A stretch of DNA of 37,244 nucleotides from a virus. Every line of letters begins with the position of its first letter. The stretch's first letter is position 1. The DNA is taken from the IMG/VR virus record IMGVR_UViG_3300048905_000120, positions 1-37,244 of that record. One strand, written 5' to 3'. Shown here one piece after another: positions 29,050-37,244 of the stretch. Below the pieces are notes generated by a model. That model did not search any database and was not told the origin of the DNA. It was given only the letters and a program-made list of their open reading frames with translations. Position numbers and translations under genes: made by a program.

Positions 29050-29534
29050 AGCAGCGACCCCCGCCCGCGTATCGCCGCCGGGAGCGCGATGACGCCCGGC
29101 TCTGCCGCTGGAGCGAGGGCGCGGGCTCGGGCGTCGGCAGCGGCGCGCTCGCGCAGCCGGATCGTCATCTCGGCGCAATCGACATGGTTGGGCCAGGGCC
29201 GTTGCTGGTGCCAGAGCAGGATCTCGACGCCGTCGGCAATCGCGGCATTGCGCGGATCGTCTGGATAATGATCGGCGATCGCGCGCCAGACGCGGGCGAT
29301 GCGGGAGAGCTCCTTGCGCTTGGCCTCGGCGGAAACCTCGTGCCCTGTCGCTCCGGCGAGGGTCACGACGAAGCGCCAGTCGGCGGCGATGGCGTAGAGC
29401 GTTTCGAGCCGCGCTACGGAGGTCTCGGCCGCCACCTCGCCCGACGCGACCCGCGCGTCGGCCACCTGCGCCCACTCCGCCGCAAGCCATGCCGCAAGCC
29501 GCGCGTGGCGGGGGAAGTCGAAATACCAGGTCAT
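29046..29534 (-). CDS. Hypothetical early protein
   Basis: A 162-residue protein. The ATG at 29534 overlaps the ThyX stop as ATGA, which decides it over an ATG four codons earlier. It is mostly helical: MTWYFDFPRHARLAAWLAAE, ETSVARLETLYAIAADWRFV, KRKELSRIARVWRAIADHYP. No membrane segment, no recognised motif. Part of the leftward early operon next to nucleotide-metabolism genes. Confidence 0.55.
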   Translation of the reverse strand: MTWYFDFPRHARLAAWLAAEWAQVADARVASGEVAAETSVARLETLYAIAADWRFVVTLAGATGHEVSAEAKRKELSRIARVWRAIADHYPDDPRNAAIADGVEILLWHQQRPWPNHVDCAEMTIRLRERAAADARARALAPAAEPGVIALPAAIRGRGSLL

Positions 29535-30199
29535 GACGCTTCCCACGCCGCGACGGCTGTTGGAACGATCGGGCGGATCAGCTCTCGGAGGGCATCAGCA
29601 TAGACCCGGATCTCGTACTGCGCGTGCGCATGGCAGCGGAGCGTCAGGAATTTGAGCAGATTGAGCAGGTCAACGGTGGCGAACATCGTCGAATAGGTGC
29701 TGACCGGCAGGACCGATCGCGCCAGCTCGCGTGGCCACCCAGCCGCGAGCAGTCGGCGATAGGTCTCGAAGGCCATCTCGCACGCGGCACGATAGTTGGC
29801 CATGTCAATGGTTGCCGCCGCCGTCTCGCCGATCGTGCGGGCCTGCTTGCTGCTCGTGGACTGCTGACCGACGGCCGACGGTTCCGGGACGTAAAACTCC
29901 TCGGGCAATTCCCGGTAACGCGCGCTCAGTTCGTTAAAGGACCATGTGCGGTGGCGGTGCCACTGCCGGAACACGAAAATCGGCGCATGGACCTCGAAGG
30001 TGAACGTCACCGCCTCGAACGGCGTGGTGTGGTGATTTCGCCAGAGATAGTTGATCAGACGCCGGTCGCTGCCTTCATCCTCGCCAGCGCGCCATGCGGC
30101 ATCGTAGGACACGCGTGCGGCGCGCACGATCGAGAGATCACTTCCCATGTGATCAACCAGGCGCGCATAGCCGTGATCGAGAATGTCAACGCGCTGCAT
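29531..30199 (-). CDS. thyX: Flavin-dependent thymidylate synthase ThyX
   Basis: A 222-residue enzyme that makes dTMP from dUMP using FAD, NADPH and methylene-tetrahydrofolate. The ThyX signature RHRxxS is present as R82-H-R-T-W-S87 in FRQWHRHRTWSFNE, followed by LSARYRELPEEFYVP. The upstream part (ILDHGYARLVDHMGSDLSIV, TPFEAVTFTFEVHAPIFVFR) also fits the family. I chose the ATG at 30199, which overlaps the upstream gene by 14 bases; an ATG at 30241 is possible. It would boost dTTP supply for phage DNA synthesis. It shares an operon with a MazG-like enzyme. Confidence 0.95.
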   Translation of the reverse strand: MQRVDILDHGYARLVDHMGSDLSIVRAARVSYDAAWRAGEDEGSDRRLINYLWRNHHTTPFEAVTFTFEVHAPIFVFRQWHRHRTWSFNELSARYRELPEEFYVPEPSAVGQQSTSSKQARTIGETAAATIDMANYRAACEMAFETYRRLLAAGWPRELARSVLPVSTYSTMFATVDLLNLLKFLTLRCHAHAQYEIRVYADALRELIRPIVPTAVAAWEAS

Positions 30200-30554
30200 T
30201 GTTGCCACCAAGCTTGTCGGCGCGAGCTTGGGCTGCGGCATTTGAGTAGCCCTGAGCGTAGCGTAACCCGAGCTTCGCTTTATTGGCTTCTATTGTCTCG
30301 TCGCGCGTGATACCGAGACGCTGGCGCAATCCTTCAAGAAAAAACTCGATGTCTCCCAGTTCTTCGATGGCATTTGCGCGATCCAACGGCCTGCGATAGA
30401 TTACTACCTTCTTGATGCAGTCGAGGAGTTCCCCTGCCTCGCCACTTACACCGATAGCCATATGGAGAAGATCGCAATCACCAGGACTAAGCTCGCCAAG
30501 TATCTGTGCGTCATCCTTCTTAAGCGTTGCGACCATGTGAGCGTAATCGATCAT
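30186..30554 (-). CDS. MazG-like nucleotide pyrophosphohydrolase
   Basis: A 122-residue protein with the all-alpha NTP-PPase pattern: GVSGEAGELLDCIKKVVIYR, then NAIEELGDIEFFLEGLRQRL, giving the ExxE...EExxD acidic residues that bind magnesium. It would hydrolyse a (d)NTP to the monophosphate and pyrophosphate. A dCTPase, dUTPase-like or ppGpp-related role cannot be told from sequence. With ThyX next door, feeding or cleaning of nucleotide pools is likely. The ATG overlaps the DUF3310 stop as ATGA. Confidence 0.82.
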   Translation of the reverse strand: MIDYAHMVATLKKDDAQILGELSPGDCDLLHMAIGVSGEAGELLDCIKKVVIYRRPLDRANAIEELGDIEFFLEGLRQRLGITRDETIEANKAKLGLRYAQGYSNAAAQARADKLGGNNAAR

Positions 30555-30961: not shown

Positions 30962-31444
30962 TCAGGCGGCCTTGCGCAGCGTGCAGAGGAAGCCGTTTTC
31001 GTGCTGCGGCACCCGCGAATAATAGCGCTGGACGACGCGGGTCATCGGCGCGAAGCCGTTGCGCTGCATCATCGCGTCGAACGCGTCGATGGTCACGCGC
31101 GCGTCGAGATCGTTGGCGATCAGCCAGGCGAGATAATCCTCGTAGAGCGTGCGGGTGTCGGTGAAGCCGTGCTCACCAGGCGCGCGCCAATGCGGCTCGC
31201 GAGTGACGCGCTCCATCGTCCAGCGCCCGAACGGCTTGAGCTTGACGTGGGCCGGATCGGCCAACTCCTCGCGGGTGGCGATACGGCGCGGGCCGCCTTC
31301 GACCGAGATCAGGAAGCTGCCGTTGCGGTACGGTTCCTTGATCGTGCAGCGCCGCAGGTCGCCCGTGCCGGGTTCAACCCAATAGGCCGGGCTGTCGACG
31401 GTGCCAAAGGGCGCGGGGTTGGATGAGATGGTGGCAGTGAGCAT
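30962..31444 (-). CDS. Hypothetical protein, first gene of the leftward early operon
   Basis: A 160-residue protein starting at the ATG at 31444 with GGGAGG 5 bases upstream. It is soluble with no known motif: TVDSPAYWVEPGTGDLRRCT, NGSFLISVEGGPRRIATREE, WRAPGEHGFTDTRTLYEDYL. It is the first gene after the predicted repressor-controlled promoter at 31469-31497, so it would be made early in infection or upon induction. Confidence 0.6.
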   Translation of the reverse strand: MLTATISSNPAPFGTVDSPAYWVEPGTGDLRRCTIKEPYRNGSFLISVEGGPRRIATREELADPAHVKLKPFGRWTMERVTREPHWRAPGEHGFTDTRTLYEDYLAWLIANDLDARVTIDAFDAMMQRNGFAPMTRVVQRYYSRVPQHENGFLCTLRKAA

Positions 31445-31468
31445 ATGGCCTCCCATTGGATGAGAGGC

Positions 31469-31497
31469 TATATCCGTCAGCAAAAGCTGACAGTCAA
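31469..31497 (-). promoter_or_regulatory. Predicted leftward early promoter containing operator OL1
   Basis: On the minus strand, TTGACT (31497-31492) is the -35 and GATATA (31474-31469) the -10, with a 17-base spacer. The spacer is filled by the palindrome GTCAGCAAAAGCTGAC (31476-31491, plus-strand reading). A repressor bound there would exclude RNA polymerase. Transcription would start near 31462 and run into the gene at 31444 and the rest of the leftward operon. Confidence 0.7.
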
Positions 31498-31505
31498 GCG
31501 ATAAT

Positions 31506-31521
31506 GTCAGCGATAGCTGAT
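31506..31521. promoter_or_regulatory. Operator OL2
   Basis: TCAGC-GATA-GCTGA at 31507-31520 is a second perfect copy of the palindromic operator, 30 bases centre-to-centre from OL1, about three helical turns. TATGCT directly follows (31522-31527), like the -10 after the rightward operator, so a plus-strand promoter for the gene at 31570 may also be controlled here; its -35 is not convincing. Confidence 0.65.
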
Positions 31522-31569
31522 TATGCTGCTGACGGGCTCTGCTGCTAGCTTGGCTGGCGGGGGTGAGAC

Positions 31570-32073
31570 ATGAAAAAGTGCCCGGCATGCGCGGAGCAGA
31601 TCCAGGACGATGCGAAGCTTTGCCGGTTTTGCGGCTCCCGGATCAATTGGATGGGGCAGGTGTCGGCGCCGCGCCGCCCCATGGGATGCGTTGAGCTTGG
31701 CATTATCGGCGTGATTGCGATCTGGGCAATCGGTTATTTCGGATCGAGCCCGCGAGCCCCGAAGACGAGCGCGGTCACATCGGCGGCAGCTCCGGCCAAC
31801 GATCCGGCGAAGTGCGAGAAGATCATCGATCTGGCGACGAGGCGCGGGCTCGTGCGTGGCAGGCCATCGCTGGATCGGATCGATGTGGATGACTGGCGCT
31901 GGACCAGTCTCCCGGCGAGCGAGAAGGCGGTTTTGCTGCAAAGCCTGTTCTGCGCGTCGCATGGAGGGCGGACGATCGAGCAGGCCGAGGCGCTTGACAG
32001 CGCGGTCGCCTATGGCTGGCGTAGCGGCAAGCGGGTGGCGATGATCGGTTCGTTCGGGATCAACTATCAGTGA
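31570..32073 (+). CDS. Zinc-ribbon membrane protein in the immunity region
   Basis: A 167-residue protein. Residues 1-25 hold a double CxxC zinc ribbon, MKKCPACAEQIQDD then KLCRFCGSRI. A membrane segment follows at about 41-58 (VELGIIGVIAIWAIGYFG), then a polar outer or periplasmic domain of about 105 residues (NDPAKCEKIIDLATRRGLVR, SLPASEKAVLLQSLFCASHG) with two cysteines. It lies between the operators and the repressor, and converges with the repressor gene. A host-membrane or superinfection-related role is inferred from position only. Similar zinc-ribbon/TM proteins also occur in bacteria. Confidence 0.6.
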   Translation: MKKCPACAEQIQDDAKLCRFCGSRINWMGQVSAPRRPMGCVELGIIGVIAIWAIGYFGSSPRAPKTSAVTSAAAPANDPAKCEKIIDLATRRGLVRGRPSLDRIDVDDWRWTSLPASEKAVLLQSLFCASHGGRTIEQAEALDSAVAYGWRSGKRVAMIGSFGINYQ

Positions 32074-32079
32074 GGCTAC

Positions 32080-32868
32080 CTAGAAGAATACGATTTCCCG
32101 ATATGGGATGATGCGATGGATGCTGGCGATGCTGCGCGTCGGCACGCGAAAACGCAGCGGCGGGTTATACTGCTCAAGCTCGACATATTCACTGGAGCGC
32201 TTCACCAGTTCTTTCACCAGCGCGGACACGATTCGGCCTTCGCCATTCAGATCCCGCTTGACGATTTGCACCACGACATGATCGCCGATTGATGGCTGCT
32301 GCTTCGAATGCACATACCAGGGATCGCCGTCCCTCGACCATTTCTCCATCGAACTGCCGATCTGTGTGATCGCATAGATGCCGTCGCGGCCGGCGAAATT
32401 GGCCGGGCGGCGCAGATAATCGACGACATTATCCAAATCGACGTCGGTCAACTCGACGACGACCGGCTCGCCATCATCTCCCACTTTGAACGTGCCCCCT
32501 AAAGCTGTCCCCAGTAACGGAATATCCCTCACCTCGCCCTGGCTCCGAAACGGAGTGCGACTTTCCCTAGTGTCCGAGGCGGGAGCCGATTCGATCGTAG
32601 CAGCGCTTTCCCCGGCATAAAACTGCGCTGGCGTTAACCCTGCCGCCTCAATAACCTTGTCGACGATATCGCTGCGCGCGCGTCCGCGTTTACGCAAGTC
32701 CGAGAAGAATGAACGGTTTACGCCCGCGCGGATGAGCCACGCATTCGCCGTCAAACCCTCAGGCCTGATCGCCATCAAGCGCTCATAAAGGTCCGGAACC
32801 GCATCTTTCGCCATGTCAGCGATTTCGCACAAAGTCGCGGCCGATGCGCGTTCAGTTATTGCCGACAT
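32080..32868 (-). CDS. CI-like repressor with S24 peptidase-like domain
   Basis: A 262-residue protein. Residues 38-78 hold a helix-turn-helix (LTANAWLIRAGVNRSFFSDL, RKRGRARSDIVDKVIEAAG). About 115-262 is an S24/LexA-like domain: IPLLGTALGG, then GIYAITQIGSSMEKWSRDGD with S173 as probable catalytic serine, SIGDHVVVQIVKRD, and ALVKELVKR with K219 as probable catalytic lysine. No Ala-Gly cleavage pair is seen at the usual place; A122-L-G124 is nearest, so self-cleavage on DNA damage is uncertain. It should bind the TCAGC-N4-GCTGA operators and keep the phage dormant. An imperfect operator overlaps its own start codon. Confidence 0.88.
   Translation of the reverse strand: MSAITERASAATLCEIADMAKDAVPDLYERLMAIRPEGLTANAWLIRAGVNRSFFSDLRKRGRARSDIVDKVIEAAGLTPAQFYAGESAATIESAPASDTRESRTPFRSQGEVRDIPLLGTALGGTFKVGDDGEPVVVELTDVDLDNVVDYLRRPANFAGRDGIYAITQIGSSMEKWSRDGDPWYVHSKQQPSIGDHVVVQIVKRDLNGEGRIVSALVKELVKRSSEYVELEQYNPPLRFRVPTRSIASIHRIIPYREIVFF
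32852..32865. promoter_or_regulatory. Possible degenerate operator at the repressor start
   Basis: TCAGT-TATT-GCCGA has the operator layout with two mismatches and overlaps codons 2-6 of the repressor gene. Its centre is 32 bases from the centre of the rightward operator, close to the 30-base spacing of OL1 and OL2, so it could be a weak site for self-control of the repressor. Chance similarity is possible. Confidence 0.3.
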
Positions 32869-32874
32869 TTTCGC

Positions 32875-32904
32875 TTGACCATGTCAGCGTTCGCTGAATA
32901 TGTA
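32875..32904 (+). promoter_or_regulatory. Predicted rightward early promoter containing operator OR
   Basis: TTGACC (32875-32880) is the -35 and TATGTA (32899-32904) the -10, with an 18-base spacer; a 17-base spacing gives ATATGT. The operator TCAGC-GTTC-GCTGA (32884-32897) lies inside the spacer, the same layout as the leftward promoter. Transcription would begin about 10 bases before the Cro-like gene at 32914. Confidence 0.7.
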
Positions 32905-32913
32905 TGACGCATC

Positions 32914-33159
32914 ATGAAGGTCATCGACGATTCAGAGTTTCTGGTCAGCATCAAGGCGTTCCTTGAGCGGACGGGGATGAAGCCCACGCGGTTCGGACGC
33001 GAGGCCGTGGGCGAGGCATCGTTCATTGCTTCGCTTGAGAGCGGGCGATCGCCTTCTCTCAAGGTGGTGAACAAAGTTGCCCAGTTCATGCAGGATTATG
33101 TCGCCGATGCATCGGACGCCAGCGGGTCGGATGATGCCACCGAAGCGGAGGCCGCATGA
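32914..33159 (+). CDS. Cro-like helix-turn-helix protein
   Basis: An 81-residue protein, first gene of the rightward operon. FLVSIKAFLERTGMKPTRFG, REAVGEASFIASLESGRSPS and LKVVNKVAQFM form a helix-turn-helix of the kind found in Cro/CI-like proteins; the acidic end (DASDASGSDDATEAEAA) is likely disordered. It faces the repressor gene across a 45-base promoter region, the usual place for a Cro-type antagonist. It is coupled to the next gene by ATGA. Confidence 0.65.
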   Translation: MKVIDDSEFLVSIKAFLERTGMKPTRFGREAVGEASFIASLESGRSPSLKVVNKVAQFMQDYVADASDASGSDDATEAEAA

Positions 33160-33786: not shown

Positions 33787-34535
33787 TGCAGCGCCAGGGG
33801 GGCAATCAGGGGCGAGACAGCGCCAGCGACGGACGGCCAGCGCCGGGGCGCGAAGATGCTCCGTCCGAGCTGATCGAGTGGGCGCGCGGTGCCGCGCCGG
33901 GGGACGAGCTGGTCTATGCCGAGGGCGTGATCAGCGTGCGCGGCTCGGTTGCGGGGGTCCGCGCGGGCGCGCTGCAGGCGGCGGGGCTGGTCCATCTGTT
34001 CCAGACGGGGCGGCCCGGATGCCGCAACTATCATGCGCGGCGCACATCGAAACCGTTTGCCGAGGCGCGGCGGCTCGCCCCGCTCGCGCGTGCGGCGGAG
34101 CGGCGGGCGGAGCAGGAGACGGCGGGCGTACTGGGCGTGCTCAAGCGCGCAGCGCAGCGTGGCGAGACCTGCCCGAGCAACGGCACGATCGCGCGGATCG
34201 CGGGGCTCAGCGACAAGGGCGTCGCCTCCTACCGCATCCGCTGCCTGCAAAGCGCGGGGCTGATCCATGTCGACATGCTGCCGGCCGCGCCGTTCCGGGT
34301 GGTGACGATTTTGGCCACGGGCGCGGCAACCAGCGCGGGGGCGATCGAGCGGCAGCCCAATGGCGACGGTTCCGGGGCGCCTGAACCTGGGGTGCTTTTG
34401 CCCGCTTCGATTTTTCCGCCGGCCCAAATTCAGGCGCAGCCTGTCCAAACTCAGGCGCTGCCGGCGGCGCCAAAACAGCCGCGATCGCGCACGCGCGGAT
34501 CGGCGGACCAGTCACCAAAAAGGGCAGAGGCATGA
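33786..34535 (+). CDS. Winged-helix protein, possible replication or regulatory protein
   Basis: A 249-residue protein. Residues 27-85 (SELIEWARGAAPGDELVYAE, GALQAAGLVHLFQTGRPGCR) and 105-165 (RGETCPSNGTIARIAGLSDK, GVASYRIRCLQSAGLIHVD) look like winged-helix DNA-binding units; the second is typical of replication-initiation helpers and phage O-like proteins. The last 80 residues are Pro/Gln/Ala-rich and disordered. It precedes a set of small early genes and the beta clamp, so a replication role is plausible but unproven. Confidence 0.6.
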   Translation: MQRQGGNQGRDSASDGRPAPGREDAPSELIEWARGAAPGDELVYAEGVISVRGSVAGVRAGALQAAGLVHLFQTGRPGCRNYHARRTSKPFAEARRLAPLARAAERRAEQETAGVLGVLKRAAQRGETCPSNGTIARIAGLSDKGVASYRIRCLQSAGLIHVDMLPAAPFRVVTILATGAATSAGAIERQPNGDGSGAPEPGVLLPASIFPPAQIQAQPVQTQALPAAPKQPRSRTRGSADQSPKRAEA

Positions 34536-34547
34536 TGGAGAGGATCG

Positions 34548-34661
34548 ATGAGCTTCCTGGGCGGGATGATCGCGGGCGCGATGCTGATGGTGTTGGTGGA
34601 GGCGATGATCGTCTCGGCGCTGGTACGCAGGGCGCTGCGATCGCACCAGCGTCTATGGTGA
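34548..34661 (+). CDS. Very small membrane protein
   Basis: A 37-residue protein with GAGAGG 4-5 bases before the ATG and a stop that overlaps the next start. MSFLGGMIAGAMLMVLVEAM, then IVSALVRRALRSHQRLW, gives one hydrophobic segment with a basic tail, so it probably sits in the inner membrane. Function unknown. Confidence 0.5.
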   Translation: MSFLGGMIAGAMLMVLVEAMIVSALVRRALRSHQRLW

Positions 34662-35194
34662 GCAGCATCGGCTATGCCAGCCTGGACGATCTGCAGGCTT
34701 GGGCGCGCGAGTTGATGGCGAGCCGCGAACCCGATTTCGTGATCGGCGATCCGGCCAATCCGTATCTGCGGCGCTGGTGGCTGATCCCGCGCAACGAATA
34801 TTGCAACGTCTATCTGCACGAGATCCTGCGCAGCGACGATGATCGCGCTGGCCATGATCATCCCTGGGCCAACAGCAGCTTCCTGATCGAGGGCGAATAT
34901 CAGGAGGTCACCTATTATCGCAACGCACCCTGGCTGGAGATGTACCGCATCCGGCAGCGGGCAGGAGATAGCGTCCGTCGCTTTCCCGACGATACGCACC
35001 GGCTGATCATCCCCGAGGGCGGCCGCGTGGTCTCGCTGTTCGTCACCGGCCCGAAGGTGCGCGAGTGGGGCTTCTGGTGCCCAGGCGACGGAAGCGATCC
35101 TGCCACGACATCATCCATGGCTCGTTGGATTCCGTGGCAGGAATTCTGCGCACCGACCAACAAGGGGCAAATCGGCCGGGGCTGCGGCGAATGA
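34655..35194 (+). CDS. Cupin-like protein A
   Basis: A 179-residue protein; the ATG at 34655 overlaps the previous stop. Residues 63-90 (DRAGHDHPWANSSFLIEGEY) give H67-D-H69, and RFPDDTHRLIIPEGGRVVSL gives H115, the order H-x-H...H of RmlC-like cupins that bind a metal. VREWGFWCPG follows. Substrate unknown: cupins include dioxygenases, isomerases and non-enzymatic binders. It is coupled to a second cupin-like gene by ATGA. Confidence 0.6.
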   Translation: MVSSIGYASLDDLQAWARELMASREPDFVIGDPANPYLRRWWLIPRNEYCNVYLHEILRSDDDRAGHDHPWANSSFLIEGEYQEVTYYRNAPWLEMYRIRQRAGDSVRRFPDDTHRLIIPEGGRVVSLFVTGPKVREWGFWCPGDGSDPATTSSMARWIPWQEFCAPTNKGQIGRGCGE

Positions 35195-36335: not shown

Positions 36336-37244
36336 GCGGCCGATGGGCGACCCGGCCGAAATGCAGTTGAGCCTCTCCGGCGACGCGCTGCGCAAGGCGC
36401 TGGCGCATGCGCAGAATGTGATCGACCGCGCCAAGAAGATCCCGATCCTCGGCCATGTGCTGCTGACCGCACTGGACGAAGGCGTGCTGGTGATCAGCGC
36501 CAACAATCTCGACATGCAGATCAGCGAGGCGGTGGCGGCGGAGGTGGCGCAGCCGGGCGCGATCACCGCCGACGGCCAGCTGCTTTACGAGATCGCGCGC
36601 AAGCTGCCTGCCGGCCAGCAGGTAACCATGACGCTCGCCGACGGGCGGCTCGGCGTCTCCGCCGGCCGCGCGCGCTCCAAATTGCCGACGCTGCCGGTCA
36701 GCGATTTCCCGCTGATCCGCATGGATGTACCCTCGGCCAGCTTTGAGCTCCCCGCCAAGGCGCTGGCGCGGGCGATCGGGCAGGTGCGGTTCGCGATCGG
36801 CGACCAGCCGGCGCGGCCCTATCTCAGCGGCATCTACATCCACGTGGCGGCGGACGGGCTGCGGCTGGCGGCGACGGACAGCCTGCGGCTGGCGGCGACC
36901 CGGATCGATCTGCCCGAGGGGGCGGAGAAACTGAAGGGGGCGATCTTGCCCGCGAAGTTCATCGCAGAGCTGGCGCGGCTATTGGGCGAGCAGGAGGACT
37001 CCACGGCGACGCTCGCCTTGTCTGACCGGCTGGTGACCGCCTCGCTCGACGATATCACGCTCACCGGCAAGCTGATCGAGGGGAATTATCCGCAATATGA
37101 GCGGATCATCCCCCAGGCCAACACCCATGTCATTGTGGCGGACGCGGATGCGCTGGCGGACGCGGTCGATCGGGTCGCGACGGTTTCGGCCGACAAGGTG
37201 CGGACGATGCGGCTGGCGGTCGAGGGCGCGCAGATCGCGCTTTC
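36322..37244 (+). CDS. dnaN: DNA polymerase III beta sliding clamp, phage-encoded (partial at the window end)
   Basis: About 307 residues are visible of an expected 370. GGAGG lies 7 bases before the ATG. The three-domain clamp is recognisable: MQLSLSGDALRKALAHAQNV, KKIPILGHVLLTALDEG, RSKLPTLPVSDFPLIRMDVP, RFAIGDQPARPYLSGIYIHV and LIEGNYPQYERIIPQANTHV. These match DnaN (the last is the conserved GxFPDYxxxIP region, here with NYPQYERIIP). The clamp rings DNA and holds polymerase. The gene lies at the end of an early phage operon, so it is probably a phage copy, not the host gene; no dnaA or recF is next to it. It may redirect the host replisome. Confidence 0.92.
   Translation, partial: MAPNKRPMGDPAEMQLSLSGDALRKALAHAQNVIDRAKKIPILGHVLLTALDEGVLVISANNLDMQISEAVAAEVAQPGAITADGQLLYEIARKLPAGQQVTMTLADGRLGVSAGRARSKLPTLPVSDFPLIRMDVPSASFELPAKALARAIGQVRFAIGDQPARPYLSGIYIHVAADGLRLAATDSLRLAATRIDLPEGAEKLKGAILPAKFIAELARLLGEQEDSTATLALSDRLVTASLDDITLTGKLIEGNYPQYERIIPQANTHVIVADADALADAVDRVATVSADKVRTMRLAVEGAQIAL

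Follow-up and report, generated by a model that had tools for sequence, protein, structure and literature searches.

The repressor and the genes around it

The DNA analysed here, a viral stretch of 37,244 nucleotides that we refer to as the window, encodes on its minus strand a CI-like repressor of 244 amino acids with an HTH and an S24 domain (32080–32814). The protein matches the repressor family phrog_4 (1.7e-10) and Pfam S24 just under the curated cut-off (E=2e-4), and Pfam reports no HTH within it. An AlphaFold model (pLDDT 73.5) matches the lambda repressor C-terminal fragment and LexA, with 2ho0 and 3bdn among the matches, and has five N-terminal helices, mostly at pLDDT 80–90, of which helix 36–43 occupies the recognition position. 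The catalytic pair Ser155 and Lys201 is invariant in the 16 repressors aligned. The aligned cleavage segment reads TALGG in the window and TALCAD or TAQCAD in relatives, without the usual Ala-Gly or Cys-Gly bond there, and RecA-type self-cleavage of the repressor is uncertain. A PDB sequence search returned matches no better than E 0.01, most of them viral capsid proteins, and we took these weak hits as chance.

The original prediction drew the repressor frame from 32080 to 32868. A repressor is encoded there, though its start probably lies at 32814 and not at 32868, as in an alignment of 16 repressors the start falls at the ATG at 32814; alternative starts are a TTG at 32832 and an ATG at 32868. 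An in-frame ATG or TTG at the distance of 32868 occurs only in loci L137, L149, L138 and L139, and differences between L137 and L138 in the extension region fall mostly at third codon positions. The subgroup formed by the window and these four loci may make a longer repressor, with an N-terminal extension starting at 32868.

Divergently from the repressor, the plus strand encodes a Cro-like HTH protein of 81 amino acids (32914–33159) with a weak match to Pfam HTH_3; a small HTH-like protein stands at this position in all 16 phages compared. On the other side, a zinc-ribbon cargo gene (31570–32073, plus strand) lies between the repressor 3′ end and the left operators, convergent with the repressor. 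It is absent from that place in L142 and L140; the corresponding slot of L150 seems to hold a similar zinc-ribbon gene of CxxC type. The first gene of the leftward operon (30962–31444, minus strand) has a weak primase-type PHROG match, and further along this operon a ThyX thymidylate synthase (29531–30241) accompanies MazG-like and DUF3310 genes. The rightward operon includes a protein matching PHROG 4786, ‘cysteine dioxygenase’ (34532–35194). A reading frame resembling a DNA polymerase sliding clamp (36360–37242), with a similar protein in L005, runs off the window end, so the record is probably incomplete there.

Candidate operators and early promoters

Three perfect copies of TCAGC-N4-GCTGA and one degenerate copy sit exactly where the original prediction had placed them, and the whole 37 kb record contains no other perfect match. 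Counting these, the window has five candidate operators, three on the right (OR) and two on the left (OL). OL1 (TCAGCAAAAGCTGA, 31477–31490, spacer AAAA) lies within the leftward early promoter, and an operator-like repeat stands at the same landmark in all landmark-bearing phages. OL2 (TCAGCGATAGCTGA, 31507–31520, spacer GATA) follows 30 bp away, centre to centre, just upstream of the leftward −35. OR1 (TCAGCGTTCGCTGA, 32884–32897, spacer GTTC) lies within the rightward early promoter, and OR2 (TCAGTTATTGCCGA, 32852–32865), with two mismatches, is 32 bp from it; the corresponding position in relatives is also occupied, often by a better copy. OR3 (TGCGAAATCGCTGA in the repressor sense, 32816–32829) adjoins the repressor ATG and is strongly degenerate. 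Many relatives have a third OR site at the repressor start, and the repeat that is worn in the window is a good one in L142, L143, L144, L146, L147 and L161.

The two early promoters enclose OL1 and OR1 in their spacers, as had been predicted from the TTGAC[TC] hexamers. The leftward promoter pL (31469–31497, minus strand) consists of TTGACT at 31497–31492, 17 nt and GATATA at 31474–31469; the rightward promoter pR (32875–32904, plus strand) consists of TTGACC at 32875–32880, 18 nt and TATGTA at 32899–32904. Both −10 elements are weak, and a generic sigma-70 consensus scan reported neither promoter. A longer block, TCAGYTATYGCYGACATTWTCGCTTGAC, is common to both promoter regions. Read in the promoter sense, the left side is TCAGCTATCGCTGACATTATCGCTTGACT-GTCAGC and the right side TCAGTTATTGCCGACATTTTCGCTTGACCATGTCAGC, and the two are longer copies of each other. 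TTGACT[GT] followed by an operator is found in 16 phages, the window counted, and CTTGCAATG followed by an operator stands at the pR position in most relatives.

These features suggest how the switch might work. The S24-type (CI/LexA-like) repressor would bind the 14-bp inverted repeats, and since OL1 and OR1 fill the −35/−10 spacers of the divergent early promoters, bound repressor would exclude RNA polymerase and so repress both. OL2 and OR2, about three helical turns off, would probably aid by cooperative binding. The pair spacing of 30–32 bases from which cooperativity had been proposed holds in the window and is conserved in relatives, where the second site lies 28–31 bp away on the left and mostly 30–32, up to 35 bp, on the right; this conserved spacing is compatible with cooperative binding. 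Autoregulation is the probable role of OR3, which lies at the repressor start, and the Cro-like protein, as the first pR product, probably competes for the same sites.

The leftward and rightward messages probably differ in their 5′ ends. In the leftward leader a hairpin, GCCTCTCAT-CCA-ATGGGAGGC (31448–31468, minus strand), includes among its paired bases the first leftward gene’s ribosome-binding site, GGGAGG. A stem of 7–10 pairs encloses GGGAGG or GGAGG in 11 of 16 phages, against an expectation of 0.7 from shuffling the 5′ part. Inner pairs of the hairpin co-change (G-C, A-T and T-A at one; C-G, G-C and A-T at another), an observation that is supportive at most, given that the hairpins were picked for pairing. 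Phages with other repressor types (L184, L178) also have the leader hairpin, and Rfam gave no match in 28–37 kb. The hairpin may bury the ribosome-binding site, or it may protect the 5′ end of the message. Rightward, the ATG of the Cro-like gene follows OR1 by 16 nt in the window and by 13–16 nt in all 16 phages (L151 counted by its ATG), with no evident ribosome-binding site. From this short distance and the missing ribosome-binding site, the cro message is probably leaderless. Whether the two early messages are controlled oppositely at translation, the leftward message starting with a hairpin whose first strand mimics the ribosomal anti-Shine-Dalgarno sequence (GCCUCC) and buries the ribosome-binding site while cro is leaderless, is a more tentative idea, which we would sooner doubt than assume. 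If true, the hairpin, being kept before first genes that differ between phages, would be a dedicated translation switch for early genes or a protector of message ends. The hairpin itself raises a new and testable question.

Variation of the candidate operators across related phages

Relatives were reached through the operators. Searching the proteins of viral and genome contigs with nothing but the window repressor gave no match. Scanning viral contigs for two TCAGC-N4-GCTGA copies 8–30 bp apart yielded 13 stretches, two of which encode repressors 45% (L005) and 49% (L014) identical to that of the window, together with Cro-like genes, all lying between the sites; the repressor is missing from the remaining 11. 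L005 has two perfect sites downstream of its repressor and three upstream, five in all, and L014 has three perfect sites, its remaining OR positions being degenerate. An alignment of these three repressors led to 52 viral loci, and genomes of the family and order to which a Novosphingobium genome belongs supplied further loci. In genome contigs the motif pair has at least 120 matches. Of those examined, many look like unrelated sites or parts of tandem repeats, and tblastn detected the repressor in none of the loci to which it was applied, so searches of genomes with the bare motif are not specific. A Novosphingobium and a Sphingobium with motif pairs (G001, G002) were dropped as relatives for want of a repressor match. 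As relatives sit in genomes of the Novosphingobium family and order, the host of the window probably belongs to the Sphingomonadales. Among open-licence papers we found none describing these operators.

Because we wished to avoid choosing sites by their appearance, OL1 and OR1 were placed by promoter landmarks: OL1 was taken to be the 14-mer that follows TTGACT[GT] on the downstream side of the repressor, and OR1 the 14-mer preceding a conserved CANNGCAAG-like block on its upstream side. The resulting set of 17 phages includes the window, one locus reassigned by hand where the pattern had misplaced it (L139) and one added from a survey of 84 loci described below (L189). With few exceptions (L138, L154), the 14-mers have the form T...C-N4-G...A. 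Their arms vary: TCAGC, TCAGC/TAAGC, TCGGC, TCATC/TCGTC, TTAGC/TTTGC and others were seen. Within a phage, arm letters 2–4 agree between OL1 and OR1 at 0.85, compared with 0.64 when shuffled (P<=1e-5, 17 phages), and the result is the same with 16 phages and with 11 left after thinning close relatives. Arms that are TCAGC throughout OL1 and OR1 also occur in L142, L140 and L189, so that the operator code, which had been thought the phage’s own, is shared with at least three relatives.

The repressor appears to follow these changes. Where residue 39, on the predicted recognition helix 36–43, is Asp, arm positions 3–4 are AG in 39 of 40 arms, against 10 of 28 where it is not; per phage the association has a Fisher P of 0.004, uncorrected for kinship, and it stems in part from shared ancestry. 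A comparable helix–operator relation is known for Cro proteins, according to Hall, Lefevre and Cordes (2005) as cited in PMC4997575. It is well supported by the sequence comparison that the spelling of the sites changes together with the repressor predicted to read it while the layout is kept in related phages.

Of the other explanations for such sites, a chance gathering of palindromes in GC-rich DNA draws some support from counting. The exact motif is expected 0.05 times per window under a first-order Markov model, yet if the 5-mer arm is left free, 24 of 300 simulated windows (about 8%) contain three 5-N4-5 palindromes in an interval of 1.5 kb, and at two mismatches or fewer there are 29 occurrences against 26 by chance, no excess. 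The cluster and the degenerate copy therefore take their weight from position and conservation. In 17 phages, operator-like repeats occupy corresponding positions in the promoters, which refutes a chance origin of the cluster and leaves it a practically negligible probability. Sites for host regulators do sometimes occur in phage early promoters, and the palindromes might belong to a borrowed one such as LexA or another global factor. We regard this as highly improbable, because the arm sequence differs among the phages, OL changing along with OR and both with the phage repressor, a co-variation that a host factor would not cause and on which a LexA-type site is rejected.

The Cro-like protein might instead be the chief or only reader of the sites, with the S24 repressor acting elsewhere. 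Its gene lies beside OR1, the operator classes also differ in its helix region, and phiKO2 has a Cro that does not use the same operators as the prophage repressor (PMC4997575). Helix residues of the S24 repressor, however, track the arms, and the layout rule given below holds where different HTH types are fused to the same S24 domain; we find this account improbable, if less so than the two preceding ones. For some of the sites Cro may still be the principal reader. We are thus left with high confidence in the reading that the window holds a temperate-phage immunity region in which the S24 repressor would bind TCAGC-N4-GCTGA in both early promoters. The original prediction of repressor operators at these promoters is in this respect backed by the comparison of 17 phages.

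The layout extends beyond close relatives. In 84 loci with S24 repressors of any HTH type, we looked downstream of the gene for an exact inverted repeat that immediately follows TTGAC, and then for a second occurrence upstream. It recurs in 33 of the 84, against 1.5 expected at random positions in the same DNA, which makes the layout a habit of a phage group of which the window is one member. Many of the 33 loci have quite different sites, for example GGGCAATTGCCC (L193), GCGGGATATTTCCCGC (L212) and CGGCATATCTGCCG (L165). This provides a rule for reading operators in poorly studied alphaproteobacterial prophages, namely a palindrome behind TTGAC downstream of an S24 repressor and again upstream. 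It also provides dozens of candidate natural repressor–operator pairs, which could help to predict superinfection immunity groups and could supply orthogonal repressors for Sphingomonas-type bacteria. Separately, related S24 repressors lie beside a tRNA-Val(tac) gene in L200, L203, L210, L219 and L220, with the helix SRT[IV]WAD and, in several, TTAGA..TCTAA-like palindromes upstream; these are perhaps a domesticated relative.

Comparison with known immunity regions

The nearest named phage repressors are the C repressor of Rhizobium phage 16-3 and its relatives, at about 25–34% identity, mostly in the C-terminal domain. Phage 16-3 is likewise an alphaproteobacterial temperate phage, and its PL and PR interact with C (PMC3694467). 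The 16-3 match (residues 116–254) leaves the DNA-binding domain uncovered, and no operator code can therefore be transferred from 16-3. The immB region of the telomere phages phiKO2/N15 shares with the window a set of five operators, three between the repressor and cro and two in OL. Its sites are of 16 bp, T-A-N10-T-A, in contrast to 14 bp here, and its OL precedes the plasmid replication gene repA (PMC4997575). The features conserved among self-cleaving repressors are reported as undetected in its CB protein (PMC4997575), whereas the Ser/Lys pair is kept in the window repressor.

In overall design the region would work like the switches of lambda and phiKO2/N15, and the window had been proposed to hold a complete lambda-like switch. 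The CI-like repressor and the small Cro-like HTH protein are present; equivalents of N, CII and CIII were not recognised among the genes scanned with Pfam and PHROGs. As in lambda, the repressor and Cro-like genes are divergent, both early promoters contain operators with several sites each, and the repressor joins an HTH to an S24/LexA-like domain. The differences lie in the details of the layout: sites of 14 bp here and 17 bp in lambda, three OR and two OL sites against three and three, and centre spacings of 28–36 here against about 20–24 between lambda operators. In the slot that rexAB occupies in lambda, the window has its zinc-ribbon cargo gene, which points toward the repressor.
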